Part shown: one piece after another, positions 12,546-55,697 of the stretch
How the letters are laid out: every line of letters begins with the position of its first letter
Position numbering within the stretch: position 1 is the stretch's first letter
DNA from: an uncultured Eubacteriales bacterium
GTDB taxonomy: Bacteria; Bacillota; Clostridia; Christensenellales; Aristaeellaceae
Length of the DNA: 55,697 nucleotides
Direction of reading: 5' to 3'
Assembly (NCBI GenBank): GCA_902778995.1
Contig: CACYZW010000048.1
Span: 1 to 55,697 of the forward strand
Program-made: the position numbers and the translations under genes
The notes under the pieces: model-generated
Told to the model about the DNA's origin: nothing
What the model saw: only the letters and a program-made list of their open reading frames with translations
Databases searched by the model: none

Positions 12546-12635
12546 GGAGAAGTCGCCTAGCTTGGTCGAGGGCGCACGACTGGAAATCGTGTAGGCGTCA
12601 AAAGCGTCTCGAGGGTTCGAATCCCTCCACTTGCC
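12546..12635 (+). tRNA. tRNA-Ser(GGA) with mismatched acceptor stem
   Basis: The body of a serine tRNA is clear: D-stem GCCT/GGGC, anticodon arm CACGA-CTGGAAA-TCGTG with anticodon GGA, the long serine-type variable arm (TAGGCGTC...GCGTCTC) and T-arm GAGGG-TTCGAAT-CCCTC. The acceptor 5' strand GGAGAAG would normally face CTTCTCC, but the 3' strand here reads CACTTGC, giving mismatches at three of seven positions. No CCA is encoded directly after it. It may be a decayed or poorly functional copy, or contain an error. Confidence 0.8.
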
Positions 12636-17929: not shown

Positions 17930-18862
17930 ATGGGAAATGGGACACGGAAAGCGGGCAACCGGGAGAAGCTGGGCAACCTGATGCTGATAATGGCGGCGAT
18001 GATCTGGGGCACGGCCTTTGTCGCACAGCGCCAGGGCATGGAGACGATCGAGCCCATAACCTTCGCGGCGGCGCGCATGGTGCTTTCTGCGGCGGTTGTC
18101 GGACTTGTGGCGCTGCTGACCAGCCGGGGAAGCAAGCTGCTCCCTGCCGACAGGGCGCGCAGGCGTCGGGCCAGCATCGCCGGAGGCATCGGCTGCGGCG
18201 TATTCCTTGCGCTGGGAAGCGTCACGCAGCAGATGGGCCTTGTCACAACCACGGCGGGCAAGGCCGGGTTCATCACAGCCATGTACATGCTGTTCGTGCC
18301 CGTCGTCAACTTTATACTGTTCCGGAAGAAAACGACATGGGTTGTTTGGCTGGCAGTGCTGATCGGGCTGACAGGCATGTTCCTGCTGTGCGTGAACGAG
18401 GACTTCAGACTCGAGAGGGGCGACGCGATGGTGTTCGCCTGCGCGTTATTGTTCACGGGCCACATACTCTGCTGCGACCACTTCGCTCCCCTGGGCGACC
18501 CCATCGTCATATCCGCCATCCAGTGTCTCACCGCGGCCCTGATCTGCGGCGCGGGGGCGTTCGCCTTGGAGGAACCCACCTGGGCGAAGGTGGCCTCCGC
18601 CGCAGTGCCGATTGCGTATTGCGGCGTCATGTCCGGCGGCGTGGGCTTTACGCTGCAAATCGTGGCCCAGCGCTTCACAGACCCCACGGTGGCGTCGCTG
18701 TTGATGAGCCTGGAATCGGTGTTCGCGGCCCTTGCCGGTGCGCTGCTGATTGGGGAACGGATGCGGCCCCGGGAGCTGGTGGGCTGCGTGGTGATGTTCG
18801 CCGCCATCCTGCTGGTGCAGTTGCCGGTGGGTCGGCGGGGGAAGGGGGACGCTGAGATATGA
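17930..18862 (+). CDS. EamA/DMT family transporter
   Basis: The 310-residue integral membrane protein has ten hydrophobic segments arranged as two EamA repeats, typical of the drug/metabolite transporter superfamily. Start of repeat 1: LGNLMLIMAAMIWGTAFVAQ; repeat 2 contains SGGVGFTLQIVAQRFTDPT and SLLMSLESVFAALAGALLIGE. The C-terminus is basic (VGRRGKGD). Substrate cannot be predicted. It overlaps the next gene by four bases (ATGA). Confidence 0.9.
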   Translation: MGNGTRKAGNREKLGNLMLIMAAMIWGTAFVAQRQGMETIEPITFAAARMVLSAAVVGLVALLTSRGSKLLPADRARRRRASIAGGIGCGVFLALGSVTQQMGLVTTTAGKAGFITAMYMLFVPVVNFILFRKKTTWVVWLAVLIGLTGMFLLCVNEDFRLERGDAMVFACALLFTGHILCCDHFAPLGDPIVISAIQCLTAALICGAGAFALEEPTWAKVASAAVPIAYCGVMSGGVGFTLQIVAQRFTDPTVASLLMSLESVFAALAGALLIGERMRPRELVGCVVMFAAILLVQLPVGRRGKGDAEI

Positions 18863-19431
18863 CCGTAAGGGACGCGCGCCCGTCGGACGCCGGGGCGCTT
18901 CTGGGGATATACGCCTGGTATGTGCGCCACACCGCCGTCAGCTTTGAATATGAACCGCCGACCCCGGAGGAATTCCGGCGGCGCATGATCCGGACGACCG
19001 CGAAGTATCCCTGGCTGGTGGCCGAGGGGGCGGGCGGACTTCTGGGATACGCCTATGCCGGCCCGTTTAAGGGGCGCGCGGCCTACGACTGGTCCTGCGA
19101 GACCACCGTCTACGTCGCCCGCGAGGCCCGTGGCCGAGGGGTGGGCCGGGCGCTGTATGGCGCGCTGGAAAGGGCATTGCAATCGATGGGCGTGCGCAAC
19201 CTGTACGCCTGTATCGCATACCCCGACCCGGAGGACGAGTACCTGTCCCTCGCCAGTCCCCGCTTTCACGCCCGCATGGGCTATGCCGAGGCGGGGCGCT
19301 TCCACCGCTGCGCCAGCAAGTTCGGGCGCTGGTACGACATGGTCTGGATGGAGAAGTTCATCGGGGGCCACGAGGCGGAGCCGATGCACGTGAAGGCCTA
19401 TGATGGCGCCGGGGCGTTTGGATCGAATTGA
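18859..19431 (+). CDS. GNAT N-acetyltransferase, Pat-like
   Basis: This 190-residue protein is close in pattern to phosphinothricin/methionine-sulfoximine N-acetyltransferases: VRDARPSDAGALLGIYAWYV at the N-terminus, TAVSFEYEPPTPEEF near residue 30, and the acetyl-CoA loop REARGRGVGRALYGALE near 90-106. The end FHRCASKFGRWYDMVWME is also typical. In most bacteria such enzymes acetylate amino-acid analogues. It is translationally coupled to the EamA transporter, which could export the same compound or its product; this is inference. Confidence 0.88.
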   Translation: MTVRDARPSDAGALLGIYAWYVRHTAVSFEYEPPTPEEFRRRMIRTTAKYPWLVAEGAGGLLGYAYAGPFKGRAAYDWSCETTVYVAREARGRGVGRALYGALERALQSMGVRNLYACIAYPDPEDEYLSLASPRFHARMGYAEAGRFHRCASKFGRWYDMVWMEKFIGGHEAEPMHVKAYDGAGAFGSN

Positions 19432-19434
19432 AAA

Positions 19435-19602
19435 GTTACAGCTCAGCCTGCAGCTTCGCAGTAACTGTCGAAGGGGGACAGGTCCCCCTTCGAGACATCC
19501 CCCGACAGATTTTGCTTGATTATTGATAATAATCTGGCCGCAAAATCTGCAAGGATGGCATTTTTACTTCTGGAAAATGGGATTTTCCGCCAGAAAAATG
19601 CC
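19435..19602 (+). repeat. R2 structured repeat, copy 1
   Basis: Four hairpins follow each other. GTTAC...GTAAC; AAGGGGGAC/GTCCCCCTT; CAGATTTTGC (19506-19515) with GCAAAATCTG (19540-19549), enclosing GATTATT (19518-19524) with AATAATC (19528-19534); and GGCATTTTT...TTCTGG with CCGCCAGAAAAATGCC at the end. The sequence recurs at 55536 and, diverged, at 50470. It fills the gap between the GNAT gene and the next gene and could be a non-coding RNA or a mobile palindromic element. Confidence 0.8.
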
Positions 19603-19640
19603 TGCGGGGTCGGCGTACATGCCGCCAGGGAGTTTTGGCC

Positions 19641-20618
19641 ATGGAACCATTCGTCAACCTCGTCTTACTCTTCTTCACCTATTCCATTGCCGGATGGTGC
19701 ATGGAGGTGGCCCTGAAGTATCGACAGTATCACCGCTTTATCAACCGGGGCTTTCTCACGGGGCCCTGGCTGCCCATCTACGGTTCGGGCGCGGTGCTGA
19801 TCACGTTGGCGGTGAACGCGCTGTCCGCCTATGAGCATTCCATCGGCACGACATTTTTGGTTTCCTTCGTGCTGTGCGGGTTGGTGGAGTACGGGGCCAG
19901 CTGGTTCATGGAAAAGAAGTTCCACGCCCGGTGGTGGGATTACAGCAATAAGCCCATGAACCTGAACGGCAGGGTTTGGATCGGCAACCTGATACTCTTC
20001 GGGCTGGCGGGCGTGTTGATCGAGCGCGTTTCCAATCCTTTTCTGCTGAATCTGTTCGGCAAAATCAGCCTTACGGCCAGGGGAATCATCGCGGGCTTCC
20101 TGTCGGCGACCATGGCGGCGGACTATGTGGTGACCCACTTCGTGCTGAAGCTGGTCAAGATCGGCGTCGAAAGCAGCGAGGCGGACAACACCGAGGAGAT
20201 CAGCAAGGAAGTCCGGCTGCTGCTCAGGGACCGCAATTACTTCTATAAGCGCTTTGCCGACGCTTACCCGGAGGTGGTCTATAAGACCGAGCGCATCACC
20301 GAGCGCATGAACGCCATCCGCGCCGAGAGCGAGAGATACCGCCGGGAGGCGGAGGCCCGAAGGGACGCCATGAACCAGAAGCTGCGCCGCGAGGCGGAGG
20401 CCAGAAAGGAAGCGATGAGCCAGAAGCTGGAGCAGAGCCGGGAGCAGCTGGCCGCGTCCCTTGGAACCTCGGGCAATATCCGCAATAGCCTGGTGCGCGA
20501 CCAGCAGGCGCTGATCGACCTGCTGTACGATGAAAACTCGGCCACGGACGAGATGCGGACCCTGAAGGAGAGCATCGACAAGAACCGTGAGCGCCTGAAG
20601 GCGCGGCATGCGCTGTAG
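19641..20618 (+). CDS. CmpB-like putative transporter membrane protein
   Basis: The 325-residue protein matches the family called putative ABC transporter permease (CmpB type), though no partner ATPase is near. Five to six hydrophobic segments fill residues 1-150; the motif FTYSIAGWCMEV near the start, LTGPWLPIYGSGAV near 46 and WWDYSNKPMNLNGRVW near 97 are typical. The C-terminal 130 residues form a long charged coiled coil (ERYRREAEARRDAMNQKL and similar). The ATG at 19641 was chosen over TTG at 19635 for its spacing to AGGGAG. Function is not known. Confidence 0.85.
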   Translation: MEPFVNLVLLFFTYSIAGWCMEVALKYRQYHRFINRGFLTGPWLPIYGSGAVLITLAVNALSAYEHSIGTTFLVSFVLCGLVEYGASWFMEKKFHARWWDYSNKPMNLNGRVWIGNLILFGLAGVLIERVSNPFLLNLFGKISLTARGIIAGFLSATMAADYVVTHFVLKLVKIGVESSEADNTEEISKEVRLLLRDRNYFYKRFADAYPEVVYKTERITERMNAIRAESERYRREAEARRDAMNQKLRREAEARKEAMSQKLEQSREQLAASLGTSGNIRNSLVRDQQALIDLLYDENSATDEMRTLKESIDKNRERLKARHAL

Positions 20619-50469: not shown

Positions 50470-50605
50470 CGACCGGCAACCGTCCATGGGGGACGGATGC
50501 CCCTTCGAGGCGTCCCGTGAAGATTCTGCCTGGCTTTCAGAAAATGCCCGGCCGCAGAATCCGCAGGGACGGTGTCCGCGCCGCCGTTTTCAAAATAAAA
50601 AAAGG
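50470..50605 (+). repeat. R2 structured repeat, diverged copy 3
   Basis: The order of hairpins is kept: GGGGGAC...GCCCC, then GATTCTGC (50522-50529) with GCAGAATC (50554-50561). Where copies 1 and 2 have T-A pairs in this stem, this copy has C-G. The last hairpin is shortened. It lies between the GT2 gene and asnS. Confidence 0.6.
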
Positions 50606-55405: not shown

Positions 55406-55462
55406 TTGCTTGTTGTTGCTGACAGACGGGGCTGTAACAAGACGGTTTATCAGACAATAAAG

Positions 55463-55510
55463 ACAACATCGCAGGGGCGGCGCATATGCCGCCCCTGCGA
55501 TGTTGTTTTG
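55463..55510. terminator. Strong terminator after L,D-transpeptidase
   Basis: ACAACATCGCAGGGGCGGC pairs perfectly with GCCGCCCCTGCGATGTTGT, followed by TTT. Confidence 0.9.
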
Positions 55511-55535
55511 GAGACGTTTTCTGCCGCAATTTCTG

Positions 55536-55697
55536 TTACTGCTCAGCCTGCGGCTTCGCAGTAACTGTCGAAGGGGGACGGGTCCCCCTTCGAGACATCC
55601 CCGACAGATTTTGCTTGATTATCGCAGATAATCTGGCCGCAAAATCTGCAAGGAAGGTATTTTTCTTCTGGAAAATGGGATTTTCCGCCAGAAAAAT
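55536..55697 (+). repeat. R2 structured repeat, copy 2 (cut by window end)
   Basis: It is about 92 percent identical by eye to copy 1 (19435-19602). The first stem is perfect here (GTTACTGC/GCAGTAAC). The inner stem is GATTATC (55617-55623)/GATAATC (55627-55633), against GATTATT/AATAATC in copy 1. The last hairpin is cut by the end of the window. Confidence 0.8.

Follow-up and report, generated by a model that had tools for sequence, protein, structure and literature searches.

The window, i.e. the whole stretch of 55,697 nucleotides that was analysed, is a contig of an uncultured Eubacteriales bacterium (Christensenellales, Aristaeellaceae; GenBank assembly GCA_902778995.1, contig CACYZW010000048.1). 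It contains three copies of a string of hairpins, all on the + strand, which are numbered here as copy 1 (19435–19633), copy 2 (50487–50589) and copy 3 (55535–55697). Copy 1 lies between two co-directional genes, encoding a GNAT acetyltransferase and an ABC_trans_CmpB family protein, and its match to the covariance model of the family ends 7 nt ahead of the start codon chosen for the latter. Copy 3 is found 129 nt downstream of an L,D-transpeptidase gene; the interval between them also holds a terminator-like structure at 55460–55509, a 22-bp hairpin (95% complementary) followed by Ts. The positions of all parts and neighbours are given in Table 1.

Table 1. Parts of the three hairpin strings in the window and the genes beside them
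Feature	Position	Strand	Basis or remark
GNAT acetyltransferase, upstream neighbour of copy 1	18859..19431	+	PF13420, 1.5e-26
Copy 1 H0, left terminal inverted repeat GTTACAGCTCAG as short hairpin (MITE end)	19435..19465	+	Starts 3 nt past the upstream stop codon
Copy 1 H1, hairpin TCGAAGGGGGAC-AG-GTCCCCCTTCGA	19468..19493	+	Sequence, covariance-model match
Copy 1 C-rich linker, conserved	19494..19505	+	Alignment of copies
Copy 1 H2, hairpin with asymmetric internal loop TT / TGGCC	19506..19549	+	Fold, covariance-model match
Copy 1 linker CAAGGAT, conserved (family form CAAGGAAG)	19550..19556	+	Alignment of copies
Copy 1 H3, hairpin	19557..19602	+	Fold, covariance-model match
Copy 1 decayed H4, loop GTACATGCCGCC retained, outer stem broken	19603..19633	+	Model alignment
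ABC_trans_CmpB family protein, downstream neighbour of copy 1, chosen start ATG 19641	19641..20618	+	PF06541, 1.3e-45
Copy 2, degenerate relic in a divergent intergenic region	50487..50589	+	Covariance-model match, 34.6 bits
Copy 2 flank, glycosyltransferase gene		-	
Copy 2 flank, class II D/K/N-type tRNA synthetase gene		+	
Copy 3 H0, left terminal inverted repeat GTTACTGCTCAG hairpin	55535..55565	+	Sequence
Copy 3 H1, hairpin	55568..55593	+	Sequence, covariance-model match
Copy 3 H2, hairpin	55605..55648	+	Sequence, covariance-model match
Copy 3 H3, hairpin, reaches the contig end, remainder beyond the contig	55656..55697	+	Covariance-model match

The three best matches of the family covariance model in the window are precisely these copies, with 138.6 bits for copy 1 (19471–19633), 120.9 bits for copy 3 (55571–55697, truncated by the contig end) and a low score for the degenerate copy 2. 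An earlier, sequence-only reading of the window had reported three copies in the same orientation with paired base changes in two stems, and the letters it quoted are indeed present. The inner stem reads GATTATT/AATAATC in copy 1 and GATTATC/GATAATC in copy 3, and the outer stem ATTTTGC/GCAAAAT in copies 1 and 3 and ATTCTGC/GCAGAAT in copy 2. These changes are real, but the second and third copies had been interchanged in that reading: what it called copy 2 lies at 55535, and what it called copy 3 is the copy that it placed at 50470. The extent proposed for copy 1 (19435–19602) was incomplete: its first 31 positions are a hairpin of the terminal inverted repeat and do not belong to the RNA core, and the decayed H4 lies past its other end. 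No right MITE end was found for copy 1.

Alignment of copies from many species revealed a common architecture of four hairpins, H1 to H4, and often a fifth, in which the stems are variable and compensating and several unpaired segments are conserved. H1 is a stable hairpin, followed by the C-rich linker CCACCCCC. H2 consists of an almost invariant basal stem (CAGATTTTGC/GCAAAATCTG), an asymmetric internal loop and a variable inner stem, and is separated by the linker CAAGGAAG from H3, the apical hairpin of which occurs in dissimilar versions (GGAAATGGGATTTCC or GGCAGGCTCCCTGCC). H4 carries the loop YACAYGY and is followed by ATTGAA; an additional hairpin after H4 was found in 55 of 92 copies, compared to 7.4% in a shuffled control. 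The asymmetric loop of H2 is retained in 100 of 101 aligned copies, while two copies outside this set (L020 and L049) have a symmetric H2 that forms a perfect palindrome. In other genera entire stems have been exchanged, such as H1 in L176 (CAAAATGAA...TTCATTTTG), and the linker and loop segments are conserved across genera. Strong conservation was seen in parts of the C-rich linker, in AAGG, in the ACA.G loop and in the ATT after H4. Averaged over all columns, the frequency of the commonest base is 0.73 for unpaired and 0.79 for paired positions, i.e. the conservation of unpaired positions is concentrated in segments and is not higher overall. Independently of the alignment, the minimum-energy fold of one plain copy (a core without the transposon-type ends described below) contained H1 to H5, with a z-score of -6.0. 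An insert extends the inner stem of H2 in L032, L052 and L260 (e.g. GTTTTCCGCCTGTTTG ... CAAACAGGCGGAAAAC in L032) and, judged by match length, also in L208, L222, L229, L231, L235 and L236.

The element is widespread within one bacterial family. DNA comparison with the copy 1 segment gave 50 matches in the genome from which the window derives (G000) and matches in 20 of the 27 other genomes of the genus, and no match in 32 genomes of other genera. With the covariance model at least 419 matches (E-value up to 0.01) were identified in 25 of the 28 genomes of the genus, including 65 in G000 and at least 102 in G025 (102 candidates being scored in each genome), and in the host family as a whole 34 of 60 sampled genomes had matches, representing 27 of 50 genera. 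In 195 other genomes of the class none was present among the 14 candidates scored in each, in a search of reduced sensitivity. A number of contigs of the G000 assembly break in or beside the element (e.g. at the end of C48, at both ends of C156 and C10, and at the starts of C50, C11 and C6), so that joins across the element are missing and the true copy number is probably higher.

Comparison of the window with Rfam 15 at the gathering threshold gave no match to the element, and the single match elsewhere in the window is a weak tRNA hit at 12552–12628 on the + strand (32.6 bits; gathering threshold 29). When 12 loci were searched at E-values up to 1, four matches were obtained, none of which covers the element; a T-box leader (RF00230, 99.4 bits) was identified at positions 191–414 of L042 in G014, a locus that also bears the element. 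Viral contigs, scanned for an exact pattern, and plasmids, searched for distant matches, yielded nothing. No described counterpart was recognised from titles and the opening parts of abstracts, albeit that the element may correspond to an unnamed entry among the 3161 human-microbiome candidate motifs of PMC8040213.

Covariation was determined in three sets of copies, which are largely top-scoring matches, a selection that favours well-paired copies. In a MAFFT alignment of 27 copies (A1) 90.9% of the cells are paired and 165 cells show double changes, compared to a mean of 52.7 after shuffling (none of 500 shuffles being as high) and at most 52 when the structure was slid along the alignment. 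Since the structure had been drawn from A1, it was tested on 73 further copies that MAFFT had added without use of the structure and that remained from a set of 101 after removal of rows already in A1 and of duplicates. In these held-out copies 89.1% of the cells are paired, and double changes occur in 42 of 49 pairs and amount to 504 cells, compared to maxima of 184 for slid structures and 174 in 200 shuffles. Taken alone, the 12 held-out rows from other genera are 87.3% paired. The 101 copies aligned with the covariance model (A2, 99 distinct), an alignment which leans to the model, gave 93.7% paired cells, 766 double-change cells and double changes in 43 of 49 pairs. At orthologous loci 159 double and 24 single pairing-preserving changes were counted, versus 98 one-sided and 40 two-sided breaks, in 38 comparisons that are non-independent and in which part of the breaks reflects the alignment register. 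The suggestion in the sequence-only reading that the repeat is more than a chance feature is borne out by its recurrence in the genome, by the fold of positions 19420–19620 (copy 1), which lies 3.8 sd below dinucleotide shuffles, and by the preservation of the structure in the held-out copies. Its proposal of selection on RNA, or on a cruciform, agrees with the covariation above shuffled and slid controls in the larger alignments. Correction of palindromes by template switching could also produce paired changes without selection, and the symmetric copies L020 and L049 indicate that such events do occur.

Many copies in G000, including copies 1 and 3 of the window, begin with a terminal-inverted-repeat hairpin, GTTACWGCTCAG, of which 47 exact sites are present in this genome, and none of the reversed pattern. 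Complete examples have the complement at the other end and short direct repeats on both sides. Of 14 IS66-type copies measured, 10 have at least 7 of 8 flanking letters in common and in register, as would be expected of an 8-bp target duplication. In G017 a gene for an IS66-family transposase (PF03050, E-value 9.3e-20) is located between perfect GTTACCATTCACCTA repeats, making this an autonomous copy (L127); it has no clear 8-bp duplication, and its first 13 bp are identical to the GTTACCATTCACC end of four core-bearing MITEs of G000 (L257, L273, L330 and L331). IS66 fragments in G006 and G018 adjoin GTAACTRTTCAGTC, which is close to another end found on core copies (L097, L243). The exact GTTACWGCTCAG ends of the window copies were found at none of the 13 PF03050 loci; they resemble the IS66 ends that were identified but differ from them in sequence. 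In G025 and G008 the core is carried by a second, dissimilar pair of ends, AAATTCTGATTTRTCG, and the nine of these copies that were measured lack an 8-bp duplication.

The GTTACWGCTCAG-type ends behave as if they collect hairpins. MITEs with such ends and quite different hairpin strings, e.g. CTCCCTGAGGGAGCTGGCACGCGAAGCGTGACTGAGGGAG, were seen at L105–L115 (G017, G007) and at L085 and L087 (G000), several of them between 8-bp repeats by eye. Two loci of G000 (L084 from 1085 and L086 around 2463) have a solo 31-bp terminal-repeat hairpin, GTTACWGCTCAGCCTGCGGCTTCGCAGYAAC, but lack the remainder of the element. No target duplication was apparent by eye, and these solo copies are possibly deletion scars.

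Copies bounded by terminal inverted repeats display no preferred placement. Only 2 of 20 tested (of 23) are near a stop codon, and the strands of their neighbours are mixed (left 9 minus and 7 plus, right 6 minus and 4 plus), the strand having been decided for 16 left and 10 right neighbours. Plain copies behave differently. In 69 of 89 a same-strand open frame of at least 100 codons ends at most 25 nt upstream of the core, compared to 615 of 9700 random positions in the same loci (6.3%), and in these 69 the core starts -1 to 17 nt past the stop codon, most commonly at 9–10 nt; the other 20 are away from a stop. For this test the 101 copies were reduced to 89 by leaving out 8 at MITE-labelled loci, one of which is near a stop, and 4 plain copies less than 450 nt from the locus start. 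Some rows counted as plain retain other terminal repeats, namely L196, L247 and L263 among the 20 misses and L243 among the hits. Proximity to stop codons could stem from an insertion preference.

The strands of neighbouring genes were assigned by a codon model trained on the ackA and pta reading frames and one rsmH gene, of which the stop-distance test is independent. The upstream gene is on the strand of the element in 67 of 70 decided cases (23 undecided), the downstream gene in 71 of 81 (12 undecided), and in 58 of the 64 pairs decided on both sides both genes are co-directional with the element. This strand bias favours RNA over a cruciform, and selection at the RNA level is well supported. 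Clustering of the upstream proteins of 70 copies placed 34 of them in 12 groups of 2–5, the members of a group being from different genomes. Pfam analysis of one protein from each of 10 groups identified DNA gyrase B, a class I W/Y tRNA synthetase, IF-2, oxaloacetate decarboxylase beta, an FtsX-like permease, phosphotransacetylase, a carbamoyltransferase, a cytochrome c assembly protein, ATP synthase (PF00231) and a phosphoribosyltransferase; among the corresponding genes are those that we take to be gyrB, trpS, argF, atpG and pyrR. The sequence-only reading had wavered between an unnamed non-coding RNA family and a structured mobile element, and both descriptions apply. A known transposon end, which it had named as evidence against its proposal, is partly present, in that the left ends of copies 1 and 3 resemble those of IS66-type MITEs, but plain copies have no such ends. 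As the constraint on location belongs to these plain copies, the transposon end does not explain the core.

The junction between pta and ackA was examined in 23 genomes, in G004 only in part, and contains the element or its remnants in 11 of them. H1 to H4 are complete in G023, G005 and G014, H3 is short in G026, G018 and G002, and G015 has an interrupted H1 together with a short H3; H2 and H3 are absent in G020 and G019, and only end pieces are left in G021 and G024. No trace of the element was found in the other 12 genomes, of which G006, G009 and G027 have short spacers (that of G027 with a piece of another repeat) and nine have other, mostly repeat-rich fillers. The occurrence of filled, partial and empty junctions indicates that the element is old at some loci, yet not essential there. 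In G001, G007, G008, G011 and G013 the junction holds long imperfect hairpins of iterated short units like GGAATTAGGAAT, directly after the same stop codon, which constitute another stop-adjacent repeat.

Plain copies are thus in sense orientation, adjacent to stop codons and maintained in structure, whereas the vehicle copies, albeit a small set, have no preference of placement. This contrast, the central result, argues for selection on the RNA within a transcript; transcription of the element itself is inferred from its location. We consider it probable, on balance, that this is a dispersed, sense-strand structured RNA element that forms a 3'-UTR or intercistronic part of mRNAs in one bacterial family and provides a stable 3' end for the upstream message. 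MITEs would have spread the core without preference, and copies that ended up in sense orientation close to a stop codon would have been retained because the RNA acts there. The likeliest action would be that the hairpins serve as a stable 3' end of the upstream message, through RNase processing or stalling of exonucleases. Such an end may shield the upstream gene and uncouple its dose from that of the downstream gene, as REP and ERIC hairpins can in enterobacteria. By this analogy, a 3' boundary that controls decay or processing of the upstream message would appear to fit the location, strand and dispensability of the element best.

It seems unlikely that the element is a purely selfish lineage of IS66-type MITEs, in which the hairpins matter as DNA only and paired changes arise from template-switch correction of imperfect palindromes. 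The IS66-like terminal repeats and target duplications agree with that reading, as do the conversion of H2 to a perfect palindrome in some copies (L020, L049) and the other hairpin fillings that travel within the same kind of ends. Correction would, however, be expected to render the H2 loop symmetric, and its asymmetry is nearly always kept; nor are the conservation of linker and loop segments across genera, the occurrence of plain copies at orthologous places, or a bias for strand and stop codon that is absent from TIR-bounded copies accounted for by selfish spread.

The nearest alternative to the role as 3' boundary is that of a translational insulator, in which H1 just past the stop codon blocks terminating ribosomes from sliding or scanning into the next gene, or sets re-initiation. 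A distance of -1 to 17 nt past the stop codon is within the footprint of a ribosome, and both this spacing in 69 of 89 copies and the co-directional neighbours in 58 of 64 decided pairs would suit such a role. A single hairpin would nevertheless suffice for it, leaving the conserved linkers, the H2 loop and the H4 loop unexplained, and the distance from the end of the core to the next start codon varies by eye; we therefore regard this alternative as improbable. A function as transcription terminator or attenuator, suggested by GC-rich hairpins past stop codons, is very unlikely: among the plain copies listed, as judged by eye, GC-rich hairpins are not directly followed by a U-run, and the element is mostly located between co-directional genes. 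A REP/RAYT-type repeat moved by a Y1 (TnpA-REP) transposase was also considered, the element being a many-copy hairpin repeat and 16 of the 28 genomes having Y1 matches, but this is hardly credible and was dropped, as copy numbers do not go together (9 Y1 matches and no elements in G027, none and 65 in G000, none and 18 in G020).

Several known systems are comparable in part. REP and BIME elements and REPINs are likewise dispersed hairpins behind genes, and REPs have a known role in stabilising 3' ends; they are single short palindromes tied to Y1 transposases, a tie that is not paralleled here. BOX elements of Streptococcus pneumoniae are modular, and together with the Correia elements of Neisseria they resemble the present element, as judged by their descriptions, as structured or modular intergenic MITEs. 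With IS66-family transposons and their MITEs some of its copies share GTWAC-type ends, mostly putative 8-bp target duplications and, in four MITEs of G000, the 13-bp end of L127; the ends are features of the vehicle that plain core copies lack. ERIC, a MITE-like repeat of Enterobacteriaceae, is also intergenic and present in many copies, and copies at the 3' ends of Yersinia enterocolitica genes alter mRNA decay (PMC10969869, consulted in part). ERIC belongs to another host group and is likened here on the basis of its description; compared with it, the element has four to five separate hairpins with conserved linkers, wholesale replacement of stems between genera, tight spacing from stop codons with a sense bias, and an IS66-type vehicle. 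The consulted part of PMC10969869 further describes cleavage of Correia transcripts by RNase III and the location of QMITE2 mostly in 3' untranslated regions; in that part, sense bias and adjacency to stop codons, found here, are not mentioned for BOX or Correia elements, and IS66 is not named. In the consulted part of PMC2864571 it is termed highly unusual for a structured element to regulate from within a bacterial 3' UTR. A known predicted structured RNA in a possible 3' UTR is alike in kind, whereas the element described here is without Rfam match and is found downstream of many genes that are unrelated to one another.

It has long been asked whether REP, ERIC, BOX and similar repeats of bacteria are junk or serve a function. 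In the present case one core occurs both as unbiased cargo of MITEs and in the form of covarying copies that lie in sense orientation next to stop codons, at orthologous operon junctions, and since both forms are found in a single data set, selection on the RNA can be separated from mobility. The analysis provides a structured element together with a covariance model for its detection, and the pta-ackA junctions form a natural series from full through partial to empty. Conservation of the unpaired segments suggests that the element is also recognised by a protein or ribonuclease. We tentatively propose, as a possibility that is weaker than the 3'-end role itself, a post-transcriptional regulon throughout the family, in which one trans-acting factor, a ribonuclease or an RNA-binding protein, would recognise the linkers and loops that are conserved in the element, downstream of dozens of housekeeping genes unrelated to each other. 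If so, an RNA module spread by transposons would set the relative output of genes within operons across a whole bacterial family.
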